Source of the DNA: Geobacillus icigianus
GTDB lineage: Bacteria > Bacillota > Bacilli > Bacillales > Anoxybacillaceae
NCBI RefSeq assembly: GCF_000750005.1
Contig: NZ_JPYA01000118.1
Location: forward strand, 1 to 34,659
Length of the DNA stretch: 34,659 nucleotides
Direction of reading: 5' to 3'
Positions 1,271 to 27,600 of this stretch are shown here, one piece after another; position 1 is the stretch's first letter, and every line of letters starts with the position of its first letter. Position numbers and translations under genes: made by a program. The notes under the pieces were generated by a model, which did not search any database, was not told the DNA's origin, and worked only from the letters and a program-made list of their open reading frames with translations.

Positions 1271-2635
1271 TTACACCCATCCACCATCCCGGAGCGCCGA
1301 CAATGCTTGGTAGATCGGCGTCCCCGATGACTGTTGAAGATACGGGATGTTCTGGCGCATCACCTCCGCCAACAACCGCCCTGCCTTCCGTTTGGCCTGT
1401 TTGATCCGCTCCAGCTTCGTCGGGGCCGAGGCTGCCCTCTGGGGCTCTTCCTCCTCCAACTGCCCTGTTCTCCACCCGATTCCGTCGATTTGGGCCACCA
1501 TCGCCTTCAGAAACGCCCCAAGTCCTTGGTCCTTCCAGCTGCGGCGGGATTTCACCCGGTACGCGAACCGGCTCATCACGCTCTCGGCGTGGCCCATCGG
1601 ACGCATGCCGGCCGTCTCCACCCCTTGCGCCGACAGCCACTCCCGGTAGTCCCGGATGCATCCCGGCATCGACTCGATCCGGCGGATCATTTCGGCCAAC
1701 TGCTCTTCTTTGGCTTCGTCCCCCAACGTACCGACGGCGCTGTTCAGTTCCACCAAAAGTCCTTCCTCGTCTTGCTTCGCCAGCTTCTTCCGCACCTCCC
1801 GCCAACGCGGGTGGCCGGACAGACACTGACGAAGCTCCCGCGCCACATGGAACCGATCCAACTGAAAGCACGCCCGCTTTCCGAAATACTCCCGGCAGGC
1901 GGTAATCCAAGATGCCGCGTCGCCGTTGATGACCAACAGGTCCCGGCACGGGTCATAGGCATATTCCTTCATCAGCCACGCTTCGAACCCTTCCCACACG
2001 TCCCCCGCCCCTTCATGGAGGTAGTGGCGCCGGTTCACGAGCTCCAGTTGCGAGCCGTTCCGTCTCCATCCCTCGTGAACCGCCAAGATTTTCTGCTCTT
2101 TCGCCCGTTTCCCTTTCCCTTGGCGGGAGATGAACAGTCCATCCGCTTCCACCAATAGCACCCGGCCATGCCGTTGGGAAACAGGGTGGTGCAGCGAGAT
2201 GGGGGCCGCCAACACCAGCTGACGAATCGCCTCATGGCTGAGGACCGCATACCCCACGATCGCCTCCAACGTGCGAGCGGCTTTGCGGTAGGAAGAGCAC
2301 TCTACAGCCAACTCGACTGCCGTTTCCTCGAGGCAAGGACGGATCGATTGGGCTCCATCAAAGCCCAGTTCGGCATCCAACAAGAAGGTATACACCCCTG
2401 CCTGCCGATCATAGTAGTAGTTCCGTCGAAACGTCACTTCTCCAAACAGCGTTTGGAGGGTGGTCGGCCGTTTGTCTTTCAGCTGATCGCGGCGCTTGTC
2501 CCTTGCTTCCGCCAGTTGTTGATCGATTTCCTCCAAAAGGGACGCCAACAAGGTGGCAAACACGTTTTGAAGGGTTCTCAACAATGGTTCCTCCAGCTCT
2601 TTTCATAAAGGCCATTCTGTGGTAAGATGTTTCAT
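1271..2635 (-). pseudogene. ISLre2-family (UPF0236-type) transposase with early in-frame stop
   Basis: The open part (437 codons from a TTG at 2584) shows the N-terminal pattern of this transposase family: TLFGEVTFRRNYYYDR, then a long acidic/aromatic core including VINGDAASWI and RFHVARELRQCL. The natural start appears to be the ATG at 2635, because it follows an AGGAGG Shine-Dalgarno and reads in frame MKHLTTEWPL, then a TGA at 2605-2603, then KELEEPLLRTLQNVF without a shift. The gene is therefore probably interrupted at codon 11, although internal initiation at TTG 2584 could still give a slightly shortened protein. The upstream inverted repeat at 2636-2698 could mask the ribosome binding site. 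Family call is confident; whether the protein is active is not. Confidence 0.8.
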
Positions 2636-3464: not shown

Positions 3465-3851
3465 TCAAGTCAGATATGTTTCTATTTTCGCTAGGCATTC
3501 ATCAATGATTTTATCTATTTCTTCAATTTGTGCATCTTCTGGATTATACTTCTTTAAAATTTTTAGATTACGAGCTTTCCAATCCAATGATTTAATTTGA
3601 TCAGTTAAAACTACCCCTGTTATTGGATAGCCATCGCCATCAAGGGATATTCCTTCTTTTGGTAAATCCACTTCGAAAGGATAACCCTTCTTTTGATTGG
3701 TAATCGGACAAACAGCTATAAATCCTGTTGCTTGATTGAATTCTTTAGGCGATAAAACAATAGCATTCCTTCTCCCAGCCTGCTCATGACCAGCTTGTGG
3801 ATTGAAGTTTAAAACAACGAAATCGCCTCTCTCTGGTACGTCTGCTGGCAT
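3465..3851 (-). CDS. mazF: MazF/PemK-type toxin, sequence-specific endoribonuclease
   Basis: 128 residues, a little longer than classical MazF (about 110). The fold signature is clear: RGDFVVLNFNPQAGHEQAGR near the N-terminus (the early beta strands and the flexible loop), RRNAIVLSP (strand with the conserved arginine), AVCPITNQ (conserved threonine strand) and GVVLTDQIKSLDW (conserved strand before the last helix). Proteins of this family cleave mRNA in the cytoplasm when not bound by their antitoxin. The start ATG at 3851 overlaps the stop of the antitoxin gene as TAATG, so the two are translationally coupled. The AT-rich codon use differs from the neighbouring core genes and fits acquisition with the mobile-element zone. 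Confidence 0.88.
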   Translation of the reverse strand: MPADVPERGDFVVLNFNPQAGHEQAGRRNAIVLSPKEFNQATGFIAVCPITNQKKGYPFEVDLPKEGISLDGDGYPITGVVLTDQIKSLDWKARNLKILKKYNPEDAQIEEIDKIIDECLAKIETYLT

Positions 3852-4102
3852 TAAATCAATTCACGCCCTTCTATCCCGAAATCAATTTCCTCGTGTCGAT
3901 TTTCAGGTGTAATCTGTGATATTAGTTCTTCCAGTGTGTATTTCTTCCGTGTTCTTTTTGGCTTTAATGTGATGATACCTTCATTTCCAATCACATTTAA
4001 TTCTATTTCGGAACCTTGTTTAATCCCTATTTTATCAGCAACATCTTTTGGGATACGAATGCCCAAACTGTTTCCCCATTTTTGAGCAACAACTGTAGAC
4101 AT
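3851..4102 (-). CDS. mazE: MazE/AbrB-fold antitoxin
   Basis: 83 residues from ATG 4102, chosen because AAAGGAGGGG lies a few bases upstream; a longer in-frame extension to 4237 lacks this site. The N-terminus VVAQKWGNSLGIRIPKDVAD is the swapped-hairpin AbrB DNA-binding domain typical of MazE/PemI. The middle GSEIELNVIGNEGIITLKPK completes it, and the acidic C-terminus (TPENRHEEIDFGIEGREL) is the part that normally wraps the toxin. It neutralises MazF and, with it, represses its own promoter; the palindrome at 4179-4203 is the likely operator. Partner gene mazF follows with a one-base overlap. Confidence 0.88.
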   Translation of the reverse strand: MSTVVAQKWGNSLGIRIPKDVADKIGIKQGSEIELNVIGNEGIITLKPKRTRKKYTLEELISQITPENRHEEIDFGIEGRELI

Positions 4103-4178
4103 GTAGTCCCCTCCTTTACTTTGGTTTATTTTGCTTTCTAAATGTTCCTTTGAGTTCATTATATCACCCCCAACCCAA

Positions 4179-4203
4179 AATGTATATACATAGTATATAC
4201 ATT
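4179..4203. promoter_or_regulatory. operator-like perfect palindrome upstream of mazEF
   Basis: AATGTATATAC (4179-4189) and GTATATACATT (4193-4203) are perfect inverted arms around ATA. On the minus strand it lies just upstream of a TATAAT-like -10 (plus 4159-4164), so a bound MazE dimer would block the -35 region. This position is as expected for autoregulated toxin-antitoxin operons; binding itself is inferred. Confidence 0.65.
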
Positions 4204-4320
4204 CTTCCAAAAAATGATACCCCTGATTTTTCGACAAACAAATATTCTCGTCGCAAAAGCAATCATTTGAATCGATTACTGTAGATGAGTAAATTCGCTA
4301 ACATAAACTAAACAAAAAAG

Positions 4321-4391
4321 GAGACATGAACCCAGCCCCTTGAGTAAAATAGATGTGCTCAAACCCATTCACACAAGGAGGTTCATGTCTC
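4321..4391. repeat. inverted repeat in front of decayed transposase
   Basis: GAGACATGAACC (4321-4332) is perfectly repeated in inverted form as GGTTCATGTCTC (4380-4391), immediately before the ATG at 4392 and overlapping its AAGGAGG ribosome binding site. This is the same architecture as in the ISLre2-like element at 2636-2698 although the sequences differ. Confidence 0.7.
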
Positions 4392-4885
4392 ATGAATAGA
4401 TTAGCACACCATCAAGGAATCCACAAGTTTTTCATGACGTTGGGGTTGGCGCTTTATTTCTCGAAACCGGTCATCAAGCATCTCGTTCATCTTGTCGACG
4501 CCTTGGACCAAGGGATGTTCGGGGACATTGACCGATGTCCATCACTGGAGTTTTCATCCGAATCATCGAACGACACTGAGCCACTTTTTCACGAAAAGCC
4601 CTTGGAACGAGGAAAACCTGCTTGAGAAGCTGCAAGAATGGATCCTTCGCCAGATCGAACGCCTGGCCAAACGGGAGAATCAACCCCTTTTTGTTTCGAT
4701 GGATGATCCCATTTGCCAAAAAACGAAGCCTTCGTCACGGGCTGTTCGCGCCATTCAAGGGTGTGATTGGCACTACTCGCACAATGATCATCCATCCGTC
4801 TGAGGGCATTCGCTCGTTTGGCTGATGGTGTACACCTTCACGGAAGCGTTTTGTCTCTATGATAAGGCGACGAGAAGAAGCAAAA
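4392..4885 (+). pseudogene. decayed DDE transposase of a second insertion sequence (IS4/IS701-like)
   Basis: Frame one begins MNRLAHHQGIHKFF after AAGGAGG and runs to about 4490. The sense then continues in another frame (SGTLTDVHHWSFHPNHRTTL, then KLQEWILRQIERLAK). LFVSMDDPICQKTKPSSRA resembles the first catalytic aspartate region of DDE transposases. In that frame a TGA (4801-4803) sits where GHSLVWLMVYTF continues directly, so it is a nonsense mutation. The sense fades after YDKATRRSK near 4885. At least one frameshift, one stop and loss of the C-terminal half make it non-functional. The family placement is from memory of similar Geobacillus elements and is moderate. Confidence 0.7.
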
Positions 4886-4887
4886 GA

Positions 4888-5052
4888 GTGTCAGTGTATC
4901 TTTCGTCATCGCAGCGGAATCCGCCACGTCAATGGATCTTGGCTTACTTCAGCTGTTCATGGACACGGGAGAGCCCCTCGGGATTCCACGTTTTGTCCGG
5001 CACATTGCCGTTGTGCCCATCGCCGTAAAACGGGATGCCGTCTTCCTCTTAT
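4888..5052 (+). pseudogene. 3' end of an unidentified gene cut by the decayed IS
   Basis: Directly after the transposase sense ends, another frame gives about 54 residues ending at a TGA (5050-5052). It includes SFVIAAESATSMDLGLLQLF, then MDTGEPLGIPRFVRHIAVVP, then a short basic/hydrophobic tail. It reads like the C-terminus of a normal globular protein, but I do not recognise the family. It has no start codon context of its own. It may be what remains of the gene into which the second IS inserted. Confidence 0.3.
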
Positions 5053-5107
5053 GAATTTCTCTTAAATTTGCCGCGAATCATTCATATACGCCTTTTCTCT
5101 TTTCTTG

Positions 5108-5113
5108 TATAAT
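5108..5113 (+). promoter_or_regulatory. -10 box of the probable jet operon promoter
   Basis: TATAAT at 5108-5113 lies 36 bp before the chosen jetD start. A matching -35 is not evident at 17 bp (the hexamer there is TATACG), so the promoter is either weak or helped by an activator. Confidence 0.4.
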
Positions 5114-5149
5114 AAAAAAAAGAATCCAGTTTGTGGGAGTGACGCGACG

Positions 5150-6166
5150 TTGGAACAAATCGAAAAGCGGCTGGCGGCGTTTCCAAAGCGGACGATTTCG
5201 CTTGTGGAGCTTGAGAAGCTCATCGAGCCTTTTGCACGCACGTATGAGGAGTTTGCCGAAATCGTGCTCGGGCTCGAGGCGGACGGGACGCTTGAGATGA
5301 TAAAGGCAAGAGGGCGAACGACGCGGACGCCGTCGCTTGCGTTTCAATATCGAATTCATAAACATCGCTTGATGGAAGATTATTACCGCGAGCTGCAGCG
5401 CTGGCAAAATCGGCTTCATCCGGCGATTCAGCTTGACGCATATTACGGCAAAGACCCGTCTGTTTGGGAGCGGGACAAACCGTTTATTGTGCAAATCGAC
5501 GACTATTTGAACACGCATTCGCTTCCTCACGAGGCCGTGGCCGCGCCGGAGCGGAGCATGGAGCTGGTCGGCGATGAGAAATGGATTACGGAAGGCGGCG
5601 GGAGGGAGGTGCTTGAGCGCATCGGCCTTTTCGATCGCCTCCGCATCATCCCCGTTTCCGATCCGCTCATGTTCGCCGTCCATCCAGGGAACATGGCGCA
5701 AGCGGTGCAGCTTCATCTCATTGTCGAAAATAAAACGACGTACCAAGCGCTGTTGCCCGCGCTTTTGGACACCGTGTTTTCGACGCTCATTTACGGGAAA
5801 GGAAAAACCGTCATCAGCAGCATCGCTCAATTCTCGCTGCAATATCCGGTGAAAGCCGACCATCGCTTTTATTATTTCGGGGACATCGACCGCGAAGGGG
5901 TGGCGATTTGGCATTCGCTGTTTCAAAAGAAGCCGGCTTTGCCCGCGCTTCCGTTTTATCGGGCATGCTTGCAAAAAGAACCGGCGCGCGGCAAAGAGTA
6001 TCAAATAGAGCGGACGGAGGCGCTTGCTTCGTTTCTTTCCTATTTTGCGCCCGATGAGCGAGAGCGGCTTTGCGAGCTGCTCGCCTCCGGCCTGTATTAT
6101 CCGCAAGAGACGCTTAAAACGCGGGAATTGCAGCACATTTGGAGGGAATGGCAGTGGACAAGCTAG
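5150..6166 (+). CDS. jetD: JetD: Toprim-domain nuclease subunit of a Wadjet system
   Basis: 338 residues from TTG 5150, chosen because GGGAG lies 8 bp upstream. The open frame extends back to 5105, but that stretch carries the -10 box. The N-terminal third is helical and winged-helix-like. ERSMELVGDEKW (from residue 134) is the conserved central motif of the DUF2220/JetD family. The C-terminal part holds a Toprim fold: the acidic residue of IVENKTT (E193) and the DxD of FGDIDREG (D245, D247). In characterised Wadjet systems JetD is the topoisomerase-VI-A-like nuclease that cuts circular DNA after the JetABC motor has extruded it. It is first in the operon here, before jetA, with which it overlaps by 13 nt. 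All acidic residues expected for metal binding are present, so it looks active. Confidence 0.88.
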   Translation: MEQIEKRLAAFPKRTISLVELEKLIEPFARTYEEFAEIVLGLEADGTLEMIKARGRTTRTPSLAFQYRIHKHRLMEDYYRELQRWQNRLHPAIQLDAYYGKDPSVWERDKPFIVQIDDYLNTHSLPHEAVAAPERSMELVGDEKWITEGGGREVLERIGLFDRLRIIPVSDPLMFAVHPGNMAQAVQLHLIVENKTTYQALLPALLDTVFSTLIYGKGKTVISSIAQFSLQYPVKADHRFYYFGDIDREGVAIWHSLFQKKPALPALPFYRACLQKEPARGKEYQIERTEALASFLSYFAPDERERLCELLASGLYYPQETLKTRELQHIWREWQWTS

Positions 6167-7650
6167 AATTGGCAGGGGTCACAGACGGCTATCGCGAGCG
6201 CATGAGGCGGCTGGCGCTTTTTAGCCCGCTTTTGGACCTTGAACGAATGCGCTCTGCCGACCTCGGCGGGCAGCCGATTGACATGAAAGGGCTCGGGCTG
6301 TTGACGCTCCTCTTTTTCTTCGAACAAAAGCTGATGCGGCAGTATAAAGCAGGAGTTAAGCAGCTCGCGGCGTTTTTAAAACAATTGACGGAAAACGTGT
6401 ACGCATTGGATGACGAAGCGTGCGAACATTTGGCGCGGACGATTATTCAAACGTTCCGCCCGACATCGGGAAAAAAGCGGAGCTATCCGTTTTACGATTG
6501 GGAACGGCGCGAAGAGAGCGCGATCGAATATTCACTTTTAAAAGCGCACGGTTTTGATGCGAAAACGAACACGCAATATTATACGCTCGATGAAGACGGG
6601 TTGGAGCTTGTGTTTGCGACGAAAGAGTTTTACAGCGAGTTTCAGTTGTCGATCAACCAGCTCATGTTGCGCAAGCAGCTGGAAAAAGGGGAGTTCGCCG
6701 CGGCGTTGAAACAAATCAACGAAATGCGCATCGACGTTGAAACGCTCGAAGATCGCATGACGCGGCTGAAGCATGAAATTCAGCGAAGCATTATTTCCGA
6801 AGAAACATTTGAGCGGTACAAGCAGCTTTTGGACGACATTTACAGCCGGCTTGCGCGCGAGGACGAGGAGTTTAAGGAGCTGCGCGAATTCGTGAACGAC
6901 ACGAGAGAGCGCCTATATGCCCGGGATATTCACCAAAAAGAAGGGAAGACGTATGAGCTTGTGCTCAAAATTGCCAGAGAGTTAGAATCGGTGCATTACG
7001 CGCATTCGGCGCTCCTAGATAAGGCGCTTTCGTTAAAAAATACGACGCTTGTGACGGCGCAGGAATCGCTTTATTATACGGGGCTCCATTCGTTTAATTT
7101 CGACCAAGACATCGTGTCGCGCATCGTTTCGGCTCCGCTCCCGCTTGAGGCGATGAAAGGGGTGCTTCATCCATTTTTAAAGGTGGAAGAAAACAAGGTT
7201 TGGTCGCCGATGGCGATTTTCGCCGAGCAAAACATTACCGAAGAGCGCAAAGAAAAGGCGGGGCCGCGTTTTTTAGAAGCGGAAGAGGCCGAAGGGGGCG
7301 ATCGGTATCGCGCATGGCTCATAGCGAAATATAGAGAGTTGATGCAACTGTTTTTAAAGGCGCACGAGCAGGAGCGCGCGGGCACGCTCGCCGCGTTTTT
7401 CGATTATTTGGACGACATCGGGCAGTCGCATTTGTATGAACAGCGCTCGTTTTACGATTTTTGGATCTTGATGCACCAGCGCTCTCCCGTCGAGCAAGGC
7501 ATGGAAGGGGAAGAAGGAAGCGCGCTTCTCGGCGAGGCGCTCGCTTTGCTTGGCGGGCGCGTGCTCGAGGTGCAAGAAGCGGATCGCATCATCCGCCGAT
7601 GCGAGCGGTTTTCGATTCAAGACATGATTATAACGGTGAGGGAACGATGA
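6154..7650 (+). CDS. jetA: JetA: kleisin-like subunit of Wadjet
   Basis: About 498 residues from GTG 6154, which has GGAGGG 7 bp upstream; TTG 6139 and ATG 6148 are also in frame but badly spaced. The N-terminus (LALFSPLLDLERMRSADLGG then a helical segment) looks like the winged-helix start of MukF/MksF-like kleisins. Residues roughly 180-260 form a charged coiled coil (VETLEDRMTRLKHEIQRSII and onwards). The C-terminal region (SFYDFWILMHQRSPVEQ) is probably the cap-side domain. I place it in the JetA family by context and general pattern; it does not look like the DUF3375 version of type I. It would bridge the JetC heads. It overlaps jetD upstream and jetB downstream (ATGA). Confidence 0.8.
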   Translation: MDKLELAGVTDGYRERMRRLALFSPLLDLERMRSADLGGQPIDMKGLGLLTLLFFFEQKLMRQYKAGVKQLAAFLKQLTENVYALDDEACEHLARTIIQTFRPTSGKKRSYPFYDWERREESAIEYSLLKAHGFDAKTNTQYYTLDEDGLELVFATKEFYSEFQLSINQLMLRKQLEKGEFAAALKQINEMRIDVETLEDRMTRLKHEIQRSIISEETFERYKQLLDDIYSRLAREDEEFKELREFVNDTRERLYARDIHQKEGKTYELVLKIARELESVHYAHSALLDKALSLKNTTLVTAQESLYYTGLHSFNFDQDIVSRIVSAPLPLEAMKGVLHPFLKVEENKVWSPMAIFAEQNITEERKEKAGPRFLEAEEAEGGDRYRAWLIAKYRELMQLFLKAHEQERAGTLAAFFDYLDDIGQSHLYEQRSFYDFWILMHQRSPVEQGMEGEEGSALLGEALALLGGRVLEVQEADRIIRRCERFSIQDMIITVRER

Positions 7651-8393
7651 GAAACTATCCAGAACAAAAAGTCATGCAGGCGTTTCAATTGTATACGGCA
7701 CTTGCGCGGCAAGGAGTGGCAGGCGCGCAGGCGGTGCAGCTTTATAAGAGCGATGATGAAATCCGCGCGCTGTTGGATGCGTTCAGCCGCGAAGTCGACT
7801 GCGTCATCGTGTTGACGAGCGAACGGTTGTTTCTCGTGCCGCGCACGAAACTGTCGCCGTTTCATGTAAGCAACGATTGGATCAAGCGCCATTATCTTCG
7901 CGCCGGCGCCACCAACGGCGATTTGTATTTGCTTTATTTTGCCGTTCTCGTGTTGTTCGGCAGCTTTTACGACACGTATCAAAGCCCAGAGCCGACGCGG
8001 AACTTTTTGGCGATGGACGAATGGGTGCGCCTTGTGCAAGAGCGCATCGACCAATTGAAGCGGCACGATCCGGACGAATTGAAACAATTTGAGCAAGAGT
8101 TTTCATACAACTGGAGCCTCATCATTGAAAAATGGGAGGCGATGGACGATGTTAAAGAGACGGCGAAACGGCAAAGCGGCGCAACGATTAGCCGCCTCAG
8201 CTTCCTCGATGTGGCACGGCGCTTTTTAATCGACCAAGAGCTTGTGGTCGACATCGGCAACGATGAAGTCGCTTTGACAGAAAAAGCGAAAACGATCATC
8301 CAGCGCTTTTTCATGGAAGTCGAGTACAACCGCGGGATTTTCGAGTTTATTTACGGATTGGAAAGGGAGAGGGACGATGCCAGCGATCAGTAA
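7647..8393 (+). CDS. jetB: JetB: KITE/MksE-like subunit of Wadjet
   Basis: 248 residues from ATG 7647, which overlaps the jetA stop as ATGA and has GGTGAGGG upstream; a longer frame from 7461 is only readthrough inside jetA. The protein shows two predicted winged-helix-like halves (LYTALARQGVAGAQAVQLYK near the start, FLDVARRFLIDQELVV near residue 190) joined by a hydrophobic helix DLYLLYFAVLVLFGSFYDTY. Such small paired-winged-helix proteins bind the kleisin in MukBEF-like complexes. The assignment rests on its place between jetA and jetC and on size; the type II JetB family was known as a DUF (DUF6063, as I recall). It overlaps jetC by 17 nt. Confidence 0.78.
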   Translation: MRNYPEQKVMQAFQLYTALARQGVAGAQAVQLYKSDDEIRALLDAFSREVDCVIVLTSERLFLVPRTKLSPFHVSNDWIKRHYLRAGATNGDLYLLYFAVLVLFGSFYDTYQSPEPTRNFLAMDEWVRLVQERIDQLKRHDPDELKQFEQEFSYNWSLIIEKWEAMDDVKETAKRQSGATISRLSFLDVARRFLIDQELVVDIGNDEVALTEKAKTIIQRFFMEVEYNRGIFEFIYGLERERDDASDQ

Positions 8394-11300
8394 AATTCGG
8401 CTGACGAACGTCGTATATGAAGAAGGCCGCAAGCGGTACAACGATGAAATGTTCCGATTTGACGGACATAACGGGGCGATTTTGCTGGAAAACGGCGGCG
8501 GCAAAACGGTGTTGATCCAGACGGTGCTGCAAGCGATCTTGCCGCATGTTGATTTAGCGGACCGAAAAATCAAACAGACGCTTCAACTCGAAAACGCGCC
8601 GGCGCATATCGCGATTGAATGGCTGTTGAACGACAAACCGCGCCGGTACGTCGTAACGGCCGTGTCGCTGTTTATGACGAACAACGGACTCGACTCGCTC
8701 CGCTACGTTTACGAATACAACGCGAACGACCCGCACGGCATTGAAGGCATCCCGTTTGTGCGCGAAGGAAAAGGCGGGAAGCGGCCGGCGGAACGGGGCG
8801 AAATGCAAGATTACTATCATGATATGAAAGCGAAATCGATGTTCGCGCGCACGTTTGCGACCATTAAAGAATACAAGGCGTTTCTTGAAGAGCAGTACCA
8901 TATTATTGAGAGCGAATGGGAAAGCGTCGTGAAAATCAACAGCACGGAAGGGGGCGTCGAAGCGTTTTTCGACGAATGCAAAAGCACGAACCAGCTGTTT
9001 GACCGCCTGCTCATTCCGATTGTCGAGAGCGCGATCGTCGGCCATGACGCGAAACTGTTTGCCGACATGTTTGAAAAGCAGCTTGCCAGTTTCAAACATT
9101 ATAAGACATTGAAAGAGACGATTGAAGAAAACAAGCTGATCCAGCAAGAACTCGAGCGATACGTGGAGACGTATGAGGAGTTCCACCATCAAGAGCTCGC
9201 GTATACGAAAGCGAAGCAACGGGCCAAAGGGGTATGGCTGGAGACGCTCCAGCAAAAGCAAGCGGGCGAAAACGAGCTAAACAACAACGCCGCCCAATGG
9301 GAAGAATGGAGGCAAACGGAAGCGGCGCACCGCCAAAAGCGAGCGACGTATGACGTGTTAGTGGAAGAAGCGTGTTTGCGTGAGCTGGAACGCGAATATG
9401 AATGGGCGTTAGCGCAAGAGAAAGAAAAGGAAGAAGAACTTTGGCGCCTTGAGCGCGACTATGATTCGCTGCGGCTTGCCGGATACAAAGAAGCGCGAAA
9501 ACGGCATGAAGAAGCGCTTGCCTATATTGAGGCGGAGATGGCGAAGCGGAAAGACGACGAGACGCTCGCTCGTTGTGAAGAAGAATTGGAAATGGCGCGC
9601 CGCGCGCTTCTTGGTTATTTTATGGAGCAGCTTGAGAAAATCGGCCAAGAGGAGCGAAGTGTGCGCTATGAACTGAATCCGATTCAAACGCAAATCGAAC
9701 AATGGACGAAAGACATCGAAACCCTCAAACGGACGGCGCAAGAGGCGCGCGAGAAGCGGGCTGGCATTCAAAGCGTCATCGATGCAAGAGAAAAAGACAT
9801 GGAGTCTATAAAGCAGCGCCTATTGGCGAATCCGTCGCAGCAGTCGGTCGAGGAAGAAATGGGAAAATGGATCGAGCGCGAACAATGGTTGGACGAAGAA
9901 ATCGTCCGCTTGCGCCAAGAGATGAAGCAATCCAAGCAAGCGGAACGGGCGGCGGAAGCGAACAAAGAGGCGCTTCAAAAGCAATGGGCGAAGCAGCAGG
10001 CGGCGAGCGAGGCGCTGGCGCAGCGGCTCGAAACGCTTGAGAACGAAGAGCAAGCGCTCATTCAGACGCTCGCCTCGCTTCGTCCGCAATGGGCCGCACT
10101 GGATAGCGTCTACATCCAAGAAGAGACGATCCGGATGAGGCTTCAGGAAGAAATCGAAAAAAGAATGAAAGAGCGAGAAGCGCTATTAGTGCAAGAACGG
10201 ATCGTGTCGCGGCTTCACGATGCATACGGCGAACAAGACGTCTTTTTCGCCGACCCGTTTTTAGCAGAGCAGCTTGCTTCATGGAAAAACCAATTTGATT
10301 TCGTCGCGACGGGTGTTGAATATTTGCAGTCGCTTACAGAAGACGAACGCGCGAACAAGCAGGCGTTTCCGCTCTGGCCGGCGGCGCTCATGACGACAGC
10401 GAAAGCAAAAGAGCGGCTCGTGCAAAAAGTGCGGCAAATGAACGACCGCTTGCAGCTGCCGATCGTCGTGCTGTCGACGGATGAGGCGGCGCGCGTGGAA
10501 GAGACGGGCATGCCGCATGAATGGATCGCGCCGCGTTATTGGGAGGAAGCGAGCGATCCGGTCTTGTTTGGCGCTTGGAAAGAACGCATCCGCGAAAGCG
10601 CCCGCGACATGACGCAGCGCCGTCAAGAGAAAGAAGCGGAGCTGAGGCTTTGGCAAGACGCGCAACAAGCATGGCGCGCGTTTTTGGCGGCCCACCCGTA
10701 CGAAGCGGTCGAATCGCTCCGCGCTGAGCACGCCGAACGGTTGCGCAGCATTGAACAATTGACGCTTGCGATCGACAAAGAAAACGCCCGCATCGATGAA
10801 TGCCGCGCCCATCTCGAGCGAGCCGGATCGCTCATCGGCCAATACGAGGAAGAATGGCGCGGATGGCGCGACAAAATCAAGGATGCCGGTCAGTATATGC
10901 AATATAAAAAAGAAGTGCAAGAAGCGCGGAAACAAGCGCAAGCGCTCGACGAGCAACTAGCGGCGCTTGCCAAAGATATCGCCCGTCTCGGCTCCCGGCT
11001 TGAAGAGGCGCGCGCCCAAAAAACAGAATTGAAAGAGCGCCTTCGGTCGTTAGAAGCCCAGCGCCGCGCCGTTGAACAAAACTACGACTATCGGTCGCTC
11101 CGCTCTCTTGCGCCGATTTACTCACGGGAGAGCGAAGAGGTCATTCGCGCGAAAATTGACCAATGGAAGCTGCGAATTCAAGGGATTGAAACGACGTACA
11201 GCGAGTGGCAAACGAAGCGGGAGTTTCGACAAAACGAGATTGACAGGCTGACAAACGAAATCAACAAGCTGAAACAGAAGCGTCCCGACCTTGACGAAAC

Positions 11301-12789
11301 GAGGACGTTTCCAAGCGACGGCGCGCAGCGGCTCGAACGGCTGGAGGAACAAATCGCGTCGGTTCAAGAAACGCTAAAGCGCCTGAAACAAAGGACGCAA
11401 GAGGCTTTAAAACGCAAAGAGCGGCAAAGCGGCGTCGTGCAAACGAAAGAGCAGCAGTTTCGCGAAAAATTCCCGAATGAGGCGCGGTGGCCGTTCGCTG
11501 CGCCGCTTGCCGACATCGCCGCGCAGTTGGAAGCGGAACAAGAAGCGCTCGCAAAGCGGAAAGCGTTTCTCGAACAAGAACGCGAGCGCCTTGCCAAAGA
11601 GATGAAAAGCATCGAGCAGGCGGCGCGTCAGCTGGAAGTAGCGAAAGAGGTGCATCATTTCAACGCGCCGACGATCGCCGCCTTATCGTTGAGCGCGGAA
11701 GAAGCGACGGCATTTTCATACGACCGCCGCGGCTTCATCGAAGGGGTCACGGAAAGCTTAAAGGCGGGAAAACAAGCGGTCGAAGCGGCAAAAGAGCGCG
11801 TCGAGCGCGCCAAACGGTCGTTTCGGGAGTTTTGCCGCACGTCGATTCAAGATATGAAAATGCAACAAATGGCAATTAATGGAATTGAGCATAAAGAAAC
11901 GTACGAAGACATTATCAGCTTTAAGAAACATATGATGAAAAGCGTCGAAAGCGCGACGAACTACGCGAATGAACATATCCGGCAAAAAGACGCCGAGCTG
12001 CAGGCTTTTATCAACCATATCCACACGCATTTGCGCACATTGGTCGAAGAATTGAGGCAAATTCCGAACAAGACGAGAGTCAAAGTCGGGGACGAATGGA
12101 AGCGCATTTTCACGTTTACCATTCCGGAGTGGGAAGAAGAAGTCGGAAAAGCGCGCATCCGCAACCATATTGAATGGATGTTGCATCAGCTTGAGTCTGA
12201 GCGCTTTTTAAACGAACACGGCCAGCAAGATGAAGCGAAAGTGCGGAAGGAAATCGAAATGTGGCTGCAATCGAAGCAACTTCTCCAAATCGTCATGAAC
12301 AACGAAGGCATGAAAGTGAACTGCCGCAAAGTGACGAACGACAACAAAGTGACGACGCGCTCATACTCGTGGGAGCAAAGCAACGTCTGGTCTGGAGGCG
12401 AAAAATGGAGCAAAAACATGACGCTCTTTTTAGGCATCCTCAATTACGTCGCCGAGAAAAAACAGCGCCTCCAACCGACGATGAAGCGCCATCGCACCGT
12501 CATTTTAGACAACCCATTCGGAAAAGCGTCAAGCGACCACGTCTTAAATCCGGTGTTCTTTATCGCCGAACAGCTCGGCTTTCAAATTATCGCGTTGACG
12601 GCGCATGCGGAAGGGAAGTTTCTCCGCGATTATTTCCCGATCATTTACAGCTGCCGCCTGCGCCCGTCGTCCGACCCGAACAAACAAATCATGACGCAGG
12701 AAAAATGGATCCATCATGCCTACTTCCAAGACCACGCCCCGAAATCGCTCGAACGGCTCGGCGAAACGGAGCAGTTGGAGTTGTTTTAG
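8377..12789 (+). CDS. jetC: JetC: SMC/MukB-like ATPase of Wadjet
   Basis: 1470 residues, start ATG 8377 with GGGAGAGGG upstream. Head half one carries the P-loop LLENGGGKT (residues 36-44). Long coiled-coil arms run roughly 235-615 and 745-1120 (heptad-rich E/K/Q segments). A non-coiled hinge-like region lies about 620-745 (around QLPIVVLSTDEAARVEE). The second head half has the ABC signature WSGGEKW (SGGEK at 1339-1343), Walker B TVILDNPFGKASS (D1378) and the switch histidine in LTAHAEG (H1410). It is the DNA-extruding motor of the complex. Unusually for SMC ATPases the residue after the Walker B aspartate is Asn 1379 rather than Glu; this may be typical of the subfamily. Last gene of the operon; no strong terminator was found behind it. 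Confidence 0.9.
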   Translation: MPAISKIRLTNVVYEEGRKRYNDEMFRFDGHNGAILLENGGGKTVLIQTVLQAILPHVDLADRKIKQTLQLENAPAHIAIEWLLNDKPRRYVVTAVSLFMTNNGLDSLRYVYEYNANDPHGIEGIPFVREGKGGKRPAERGEMQDYYHDMKAKSMFARTFATIKEYKAFLEEQYHIIESEWESVVKINSTEGGVEAFFDECKSTNQLFDRLLIPIVESAIVGHDAKLFADMFEKQLASFKHYKTLKETIEENKLIQQELERYVETYEEFHHQELAYTKAKQRAKGVWLETLQQKQAGENELNNNAAQWEEWRQTEAAHRQKRATYDVLVEEACLRELEREYEWALAQEKEKEEELWRLERDYDSLRLAGYKEARKRHEEALAYIEAEMAKRKDDETLARCEEELEMARRALLGYFMEQLEKIGQEERSVRYELNPIQTQIEQWTKDIETLKRTAQEAREKRAGIQSVIDAREKDMESIKQRLLANPSQQSVEEEMGKWIEREQWLDEEIVRLRQEMKQSKQAERAAEANKEALQKQWAKQQAASEALAQRLETLENEEQALIQTLASLRPQWAALDSVYIQEETIRMRLQEEIEKRMKEREALLVQERIVSRLHDAYGEQDVFFADPFLAEQLASWKNQFDFVATGVEYLQSLTEDERANKQAFPLWPAALMTTAKAKERLVQKVRQMNDRLQLPIVVLSTDEAARVEETGMPHEWIAPRYWEEASDPVLFGAWKERIRESARDMTQRRQEKEAELRLWQDAQQAWRAFLAAHPYEAVESLRAEHAERLRSIEQLTLAIDKENARIDECRAHLERAGSLIGQYEEEWRGWRDKIKDAGQYMQYKKEVQEARKQAQALDEQLAALAKDIARLGSRLEEARAQKTELKERLRSLEAQRRAVEQNYDYRSLRSLAPIYSRESEEVIRAKIDQWKLRIQGIETTYSEWQTKREFRQNEIDRLTNEINKLKQKRPDLDETRTFPSDGAQRLERLEEQIASVQETLKRLKQRTQEALKRKERQSGVVQTKEQQFREKFPNEARWPFAAPLADIAAQLEAEQEALAKRKAFLEQERERLAKEMKSIEQAARQLEVAKEVHHFNAPTIAALSLSAEEATAFSYDRRGFIEGVTESLKAGKQAVEAAKERVERAKRSFREFCRTSIQDMKMQQMAINGIEHKETYEDIISFKKHMMKSVESATNYANEHIRQKDAELQAFINHIHTHLRTLVEELRQIPNKTRVKVGDEWKRIFTFTIPEWEEEVGKARIRNHIEWMLHQLESERFLNEHGQQDEAKVRKEIEMWLQSKQLLQIVMNNEGMKVNCRKVTNDNKVTTRSYSWEQSNVWSGGEKWSKNMTLFLGILNYVAEKKQRLQPTMKRHRTVILDNPFGKASSDHVLNPVFFIAEQLGFQIIALTAHAEGKFLRDYFPIIYSCRLRPSSDPNKQIMTQEKWIHHAYFQDHAPKSLERLGETEQLELF

Positions 12790-13032: not shown

Positions 13033-13182
13033 ATGGCGCATGTCGGATCGAAAGGATGGCTTGTCGCCGAACTGAAAAAGGCAGGCATCGCCCGCCATCC
13101 GGTCGGGCGGAAAAAAATCGAGACGTACAAGGCGACGGAATTGTATGGGTTGTACCGAAAATATGCGCAAAAGACGCGCTGA
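13033..13182 (+). CDS. yflJ: YflJ-like small protein (DUF2639 family)
   Basis: A 49-residue gene starting at ATG 13033 behind AAAAGGAGGG. The sequence begins MAHVGSKGWLVAELKKAGI and continues with RHPVGRKKIETYK, the pattern of the short Bacillaceae family that includes B. subtilis YflJ (GSKGWYV..LKK..I..HP). It is basic, soluble and of unknown function. It has its own promoter candidate and a strong terminator starting on its stop codon, so it is a single-gene unit. Confidence 0.75.
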   Translation: MAHVGSKGWLVAELKKAGIARHPVGRKKIETYKATELYGLYRKYAQKTR

Positions 13183-13816: not shown

Positions 13817-13841
13817 TCGCGCCGATGCCGAACAACCAAAC

Positions 13842-13962
13842 GGGGCTGACCGAAAAGGTCGGCTGCCTTCAAGATAGGCGAACATATCGGGTGGAAAAAG
13901 CAGTCAGCGCGTATATAGCAACGAACGAGGGTGTCCGGATTCAGTTGCGACACCCTCGTTTT
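13842..13962 (+). repeat. dispersed ~120-nt terminator-bearing repeat, copy A
   Basis: From GGGGCTGACC to the T run of a terminator, this segment matches 27477-27600 at roughly 80 percent by eye. It has two hairpins: GCTGACC/GGTCGGC near the 5' end and GAGGGTGTC/GACACCCTC at the 3' end. Shared blocks include CCTTCAAGATAGGC and AAGCAGTCAG. Both copies are in the same orientation and follow a gene or operon end. Confidence 0.85.
13927..13962 (+). terminator. rho-independent terminator inside repeat copy A
   Basis: GAGGGTGTC (13927-13935) pairs perfectly with GACACCCTC (13949-13957), followed by GTTTT. It would end the DUF6501 transcript. It faces the convergent kinase gene, for which the T run is on the wrong side. 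Confidence 0.8.
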
Positions 13963-27476: not shown

Positions 27477-27600
27477 GGGGCTGACCCAAAAGGTCGCCTT
27501 CCTTCAAGATAGGCACAACATATAGTGCGGCAGAAGCAGTCAGTACGTATATATAGCGATGAAAGAGGGCGTCCCGGTCCAGTTGGGACACCCTCTTTTT
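27477..27600 (+). repeat. dispersed ~120-nt terminator-bearing repeat, copy B
   Basis: It matches 13842-13962 along its whole length: GGGGCTGACC start, GACC/GGTC hairpin, CCTTCAAGATAGGC, AAGCAGTCAG, TACGTATATA-like block, final terminator hairpin. In the first hairpin changes in the two copies still allow pairing, partly with a bulge. Confidence 0.85.
27565..27600 (+). terminator. rho-independent terminator inside repeat copy B
   Basis: GAGGGCGTCCC (27565-27575) pairs with GGGACACCCTC (27585-27595) with one mismatch, followed by TTTTT. It would end the phosphatase-kinase-STAS transcript about 280 nt after the last gene. Confidence 0.8.

Follow-up and report, generated by a model that had tools for sequence, protein, structure and literature searches.

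The window analysed here, the 34,659-nucleotide contig NZ_JPYA01000118.1 of Geobacillus icigianus, carries a four-gene operon, jetD-jetA-jetB-jetC, which by profile classification is a Wadjet of type III and constitutes a complete, probably working plasmid-restriction system with an altered motor. In JetC, the structural maintenance of chromosomes (SMC) subunit, the canonical catalytic Walker B glutamate that is a trait of types I and II is absent and asparagine stands at position 1379 (codon AAC, 12511-12513), a substitution that did not figure in the motif list of a preliminary description of this DNA. The locus itself is ordinary, one type III Wadjet among many, and the notable part is that the Walker B asparagine is class-wide.

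Searched with PADLOC profiles, all four proteins match Wadjet models, including JetA and JetB, on which the preliminary description had staked the identification (784.7 and 420.6 bits), and the best profile is in every case a type III model, each match being nearly full length (Table 1). Pfam matches were JetD_C in JetD and DUF6063 in JetB (314.4 bits, scanned from 7650). The genes are read as four overlapping plus-strand frames with zero internal stops in the open reading frames of the window, consistent with the complete and intact operon described at the outset; the jetC frame, for which a frameshift had been considered, is open throughout.

We then examined the ATPase motifs of JetC in an alignment of 74 full-length sequences, the window included, from which 7 of 81 frames of at most 1400 residues were excluded (L014, L023, L046, L060, L071, L073 and L075). 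The P-loop and signature already recognized in the preliminary description are invariant in this clade, as ENGGGKT and SGGE in 74/74, and so is the asparagine that follows the Walker B aspartate; six of the seven excluded frames also read Asp-Asn (DN), and the seventh, L075, stops short of the motif. SMC proteins activate the water for ATP hydrolysis with a glutamate that directly follows the Walker B aspartate, and the Smc protein encoded elsewhere in this genome keeps it (LDEVEAALD). When the C-lobe profiles of types III and II were aligned, N1379 fell opposite the type II glutamate, although with a modest probability of 44.6%; the same alignment set the D-loop aspartate opposite S1385, and the nearby D1387 is aspartate in 67 of the 74 sequences. 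Because N1379 occupies the position of the Walker B glutamate, the water-activating residue is, as judged by these alignments, absent from all type III JetC sequences read. The switch histidine named in the preliminary description is present here as H1410, but did not hold across relatives (His in 65/74, Leu in 9/74), and we dropped it as a diagnostic residue. H1388 and E1412 are invariant in all 74 sequences. As a general replacement base, H1388 was rejected, since it is invariant in the 74 but a more distant type III locus (L202) reads SNNVL.

We next asked how general the asparagine is. Among 398 genomes of the phylum, 37 gave matches to a JetC C-lobe profile, at 38 places; 29 of these loci besides the window were fetched, 8 counted as close (E at most 5e-85) and the remaining 21 as distant. 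All 29 read DN, and the 10 distant loci checked by PADLOC were all JetC3. The C-lobe profile itself contains the Walker B motif, and loci were therefore also retrieved through the JetA3 profile, which matched 36 of 396 genomes. This second reading comprised 13 loci, 11 chosen from 11 of these genomes together with two places from the C-lobe search; six of the 11 genomes were not among the C-lobe matches, and one locus (L205) ends before the C-lobe. DN was found in 12/12 readable loci, including 5/5 of those unmatched by the C-lobe profile. The only plasmid-borne type III JetC also reads DN. A few species may be represented in more than one of these sets (of 74, 29 and 12), and one place occurs under two names (L154 and L209); the loci matched by another JetC3 model, PDLC00588 (6 of 396 genomes), are in none of these counts. 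In type II JetC, the residue is glutamate in 19/19 (LDEAFAGVD), a count of 19 genes from 19 genomes made up of 18 of the 20 loci read and one broken gene in two pieces, also DE. A search for type I JetC with one model in 120 genomes gave no match, and its control was likewise silent. Taken together, the sequences indicate that the DN Walker B is a feature of all type III JetC read, and so no bar to type III membership. No mention of the type III asparagine was found in the open papers searched, a search with preprints and most subscription papers outside its reach, and the passages on Walker B in the papers searched for that term leave type III unmentioned.

Other parts of the ATPase site vary across the class. 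The Walker A motif reads GKG in 6 of the 12 readable loci of the second reading (L202, L203, L208, L209, L210 and L212, all Bacillota), which are thus without the usual Mg-binding Ser/Thr of GK[S/T], and the signature is altered to SGAQ, SEGQ or STGQ in some type III subfamilies.

These observations bear on the mechanism by which the operon would act. For type I, passages of PMC10586767 describe JetABC as sensing circular DNA and JetD as cutting it, with a requirement for ATP and a working JetC ATPase, and part of PMC12647877 reports that the type II complex also cleaves naked circles. We infer plasmid restriction by the present operon from this analogy, and sensing and cutting of circles by type III would be an extrapolation from types I and II. 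In the mechanism we propose, JetA (kleisin), JetB (presumed KITE subunit) and JetC (SMC ATPase) would form a sensor of DNA shape and size on small circular DNA, and the Toprim nuclease JetD would cut the DNA upon the sensor's signal. The two ends of this chain, subunit make-up and JetD chemistry, are conserved and carry over to type III, the ATP-driven extrusion step between them being uncertain. The JetC motor may hydrolyse ATP slowly, via another base, or not at all, as suggested in part of PMC10586767 for Lamassu LmuB, for which low or no ATP hydrolysis is proposed. The altered hydrolysis residue, combined with the kept binding and signature residues, is compatible with hydrolysis that is slow or unusual and also with an ATP-locked clamp. 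On balance, JetC probably retains some ATP hydrolysis. A bolder proposal is that all type III Wadjets have abandoned canonical ATP hydrolysis and are non-extruding, ATP-locked SMC clamps that capture small circles topologically or geometrically and then release JetD, an independent parallel to LmuB; we regard this as rather unlikely.

The strongest competing explanation is that type III is a fully canonical loop extruder, in which the asparagine or another residue does the work of the glutamate and extrusion proceeds as in type I. The invariance of K43 and T44 in Walker A, of SGGE, and of H1388 and E1412 in all 74 sequences is what a kept ATP cycle would predict. However, type II JetC keeps its glutamate throughout, and H1388 does not extend to all of type III, as the SNNVL reading of L202 demonstrates. 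Other type III subfamilies have an altered signature and, in half of the 12 loci of the second reading, an altered Walker A, which speaks against strict conservation of the hydrolysis cycle; we give the canonical extruder somewhat less than an even chance. In Corynebacterium glutamicum MksB, the Walker B substitution E1042Q impairs ATPase activity, according to passages of PMC10123090.

These alternatives matter beyond the present locus. ATP-driven loop extrusion is the current explanation of how Wadjets sense plasmids, and Wadjet research has mostly concerned type I, type III being the least-studied class. A class with intact ATP-binding motifs, as in this clade, yet without the catalytic glutamate amounts to a natural experiment on the extrusion model: either ATP hydrolysis in type III follows a new route, or plasmids are sensed there without extrusion. 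The clamp proposal, if true, would mean that SMC complexes can sense plasmid size and shape without an extruding motor. The operon comes from a thermophile and may serve as a convenient protein source.

A second alternative is that the operon encodes an MksBEF-like, chromosome-organizing complex and not a defence system. The preliminary description had identified JetD as a Toprim protein with E193 and a DID motif, and E193, D245 and D247 proved invariant in 42/42 aligned JetD proteins (the window and 41 chosen among the 120 relatives listed); the predicted JetD structure resembles solved JetD/MksG nucleases. JetA, described earlier as kleisin-like, is by its AlphaFold2 model (predicted local distance difference test score 80.8) a kleisin resembling MukF, the first seven Foldseek rows being MukBEF or MukE-MukF entries. 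JetB is, from its sequence, presumed to be the KITE subunit. Searches of the PDB by sequence with the single proteins gave no match or chance matches only, as did profile searches with JetD, the JetC C-lobe and JetB. Many type III JetA proteins listed in the protein collection are labelled 'replicative DNA helicase' and several JetB proteins 'non-ribosomal peptide synthetase module'; both look like misnaming. A precedent for a chromosomal role exists in Pseudomonas aeruginosa MksBEF, a JetABCD relative that has probably lost JetD, according to part of PMC10586767. Here, the JetD catalytic residues are kept throughout, jetD lies beside the other three genes in 79/80 loci (the remaining locus is interrupted by a contig end), and the genome carries its own Smc. 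Of the family's 41 genomes four carry JetB3, and of the genus's 14 one, a patchiness unlike that of a housekeeping condensin, and we consider a chromosome-organizing role improbable.

With regard to architecture, the overlaps between consecutive genes noted in the preliminary description were read as 19 bases (jetD/jetA), ATGA (jetA/jetB) and 17 bases (jetB/jetC). The leading position of jetD, likewise as described, recurs in relatives, with the order D-A-B-C on one strand in 79/79 loci holding all four genes (80 fetched). We found no conserved fifth gene: the widest cluster of flanking frames covers 11 of the 80 loci at mixed distance and on mixed strands; by reading, it looks ABC transporter-like. 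In four type III loci (L202, L208, L210 and L212), a frame of 370-404 residues, judged by open-frame size alone, lies 3' of jetC, and by this reading the jetD-first order may hold for only part of type III. The jetD start is most likely the TTG at 5150. A GGGAG lies ten bases upstream of it, the relatives P0001 and P0002 are 338 residues long and cover 100% of a query begun there, and the residue number of E193 agrees with a count from this codon; an alternative, longer frame from the TTG at 5105 reads through the TATAAT at 5108-5113. The sequence TTGTATAATAA precedes jetD both here and in Anoxybacillus tengchongensis. A consensus promoter scan predicted no promoter at this TATAAT, and a terminator scan 3' of jetC returned only two overlapping minus-strand sites near 13080-13096.

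Table 1 Coordinates of the operon and of the residues discussed, in window positions.
Feature	Position	Strand	Description
jetD	5150..6166	+	Toprim nuclease, 338 aa, TTG start; JetD3 PDLC00592, 390.5 bits
jetA	6148..7650	+	Kleisin-like, 500 aa; JetA3 PDLC00566, 784.7 bits (scanned from 6139)
jetB	7647..8393	+	DUF6063, presumed KITE subunit, 248 aa; JetB3 PDLC00575, 420.6 bits (scanned from 7650)
jetC	8377..12789	+	SMC motor, 1470 aa; JetC3 PDLC00582, 2133.5 bits over 1-1470
TATAAT	5108..5113	+	Possible -10 element of a jetD promoter, from sequence reading
JetD Toprim E193	5726-5728	+	Invariant in 42 aligned JetD
JetD Toprim D245	5882-5884	+	Invariant in 42 aligned JetD
JetD Toprim D247	5888-5890	+	Invariant in 42 aligned JetD
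JetC Walker A E38-N-G-G-G-K43-T44	8488..8508	+	Invariant 74/74
JetC ABC signature S1339-G-G-E1342	12391..12402	+	Invariant 74/74
JetC Walker B D1378-N1379	12508..12513	+	GACAAC, Asp-Asn replacing Asp-Glu; invariant 74/74

The assembly comprises 3.46 Mb in 206 contigs. When 18-kb stretches of three genomes of the genus were compared with the window, it aligned only from 12967 rightwards (matches of at least 60 bases), and because of this the operon seems to lie in a variable stretch whose right-hand end falls shortly beyond jetC; part of the left-hand DNA of those genomes corresponds to another contig here (C90). Upstream of the operon lies a UPF0236 gene (1274-2584, minus strand, 569.7 bits), a family frequent in insertion sequences, and adjoining the operon are genes for a MazF/PemK-like toxin and a MazE-like antitoxin (3465-4237, minus strand). 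Directly upstream of jetD is a broken coding region (4353-5050) whose two longest frames have no Pfam match and which may be a degraded transposase. A stretch of about 120 bases at about 13840-13960 recurs at 27477-27600 and in all at some 20 places on many contigs and in relatives of the genus. The UPF0236 gene, the toxin-antitoxin pair and the degraded region could suggest that the operon is itself a decayed, non-functional copy; against this, its four frames are open, its motifs are conserved and the asparagine, shared by every type III JetC read, is no local mutation, which makes decay very improbable.

The distribution of Wadjet genes on plasmids was also considered. JetB relatives number 580 in the protein collection. 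A single plasmid record out of 72,556 matched JetA3; it is the 898-kb circle of Pontibacillus sp. ALD_SL1, whose operon (L215:9083-14200) encodes a JetC of 1705 residues versus the usual 1470. Type II JetA matched 15 plasmid records, of at least 149 kb for the ten among the matches listed. A near-absence of JetA3 from plasmids would be expected if small circles are destroyed, and the counts fit such a system, the single type III record being thin evidence. A size limit of about 100 kb is given for Wadjet in part of PMC10586767. Phage records searched for JetA and viral contigs searched for JetB yielded none, and a Rep_1 search of the genome for a plasmid replicon gave no match, its control being likewise silent.

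The preliminary description had taken the operon to be apparently type II, a reading to which a long, MukB-like jetC and a type II operon in the same genome, though on another contig, lend some colour, but which we reject at the level of PADLOC classification and regard as having a negligible chance, as all four best profiles are type III, the JetA2 and JetB2 profiles are unlisted, JetD2 scores 23.1 bits against 390.5 for JetD3, the sole listing of a JetC2 model is a 15.7-bit hit to JetA, and the Walker B region reads LDNPFGKASS here versus LDEAFAGVD in type II JetC. The families that define type II (JetA2 DUF2397, JetB2 DUF2398, JetC2 and JetD2) are thus not those of the window; the genome's own type II operon served as the positive control. 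It is complete, lies on contig C205 (L157:1352-9339, minus strand) in the order A-B-C-D, and scores 812.8 (JetA2), 527.7 (JetB2), 1732.4 (JetC2) and 490.5 bits (JetD2). Its active site is normal, so that the two systems of this host can be compared side by side. A frame on the same contig (L157:435-929) repeats SIPHRYDKN and looks like a CRISPR array translated through. Types II and III together are also reported, in part of PMC8954581, for Weizmannia coagulans XZL9. Among 120 genomes of the order, the two types appeared unlinked, with JetC of type II in 19, of type III in 23 and of both in 4 versus 3.6 expected, the two draws being assumed to be the same 120 genomes. The four with both are G000, G047, G062 and G099; the type II match of G099 is broken by stops, and the type III match of G062 is weak (E 6.3e-11).

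Compared with known systems, the operon is closest to the Wadjet type III of PADLOC, with its four near-full-length matches and the gene order of its relatives; within its clade no trait distinguishes it, and all type III JetC read have the DN Walker B. The type II Wadjet of Neobacillus vireti (9qe0, 9qe1) differs in its DUF2397 and DUF2398 families and in its order A-B-C-D, and type II JetC is about 1370 residues long and, in the genes read, has LDEAFAGVD at Walker B. For type I/MksBEFG, as in P. aeruginosa PA14 and C. glutamicum, JetC profiles span about 1100-1144 positions versus the 1470 residues here, and MksB of C. glutamicum has the Walker B glutamate E1042, unlike the asparagine of the window (passages of PMC10123090). 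The SMC/Rad50-like LmuB of Lamassu likewise lacks the Walker B glutamate, which is replaced by glutamine, but belongs to another family, is about 650 residues long and works with other effectors (passages of PMC10586767).
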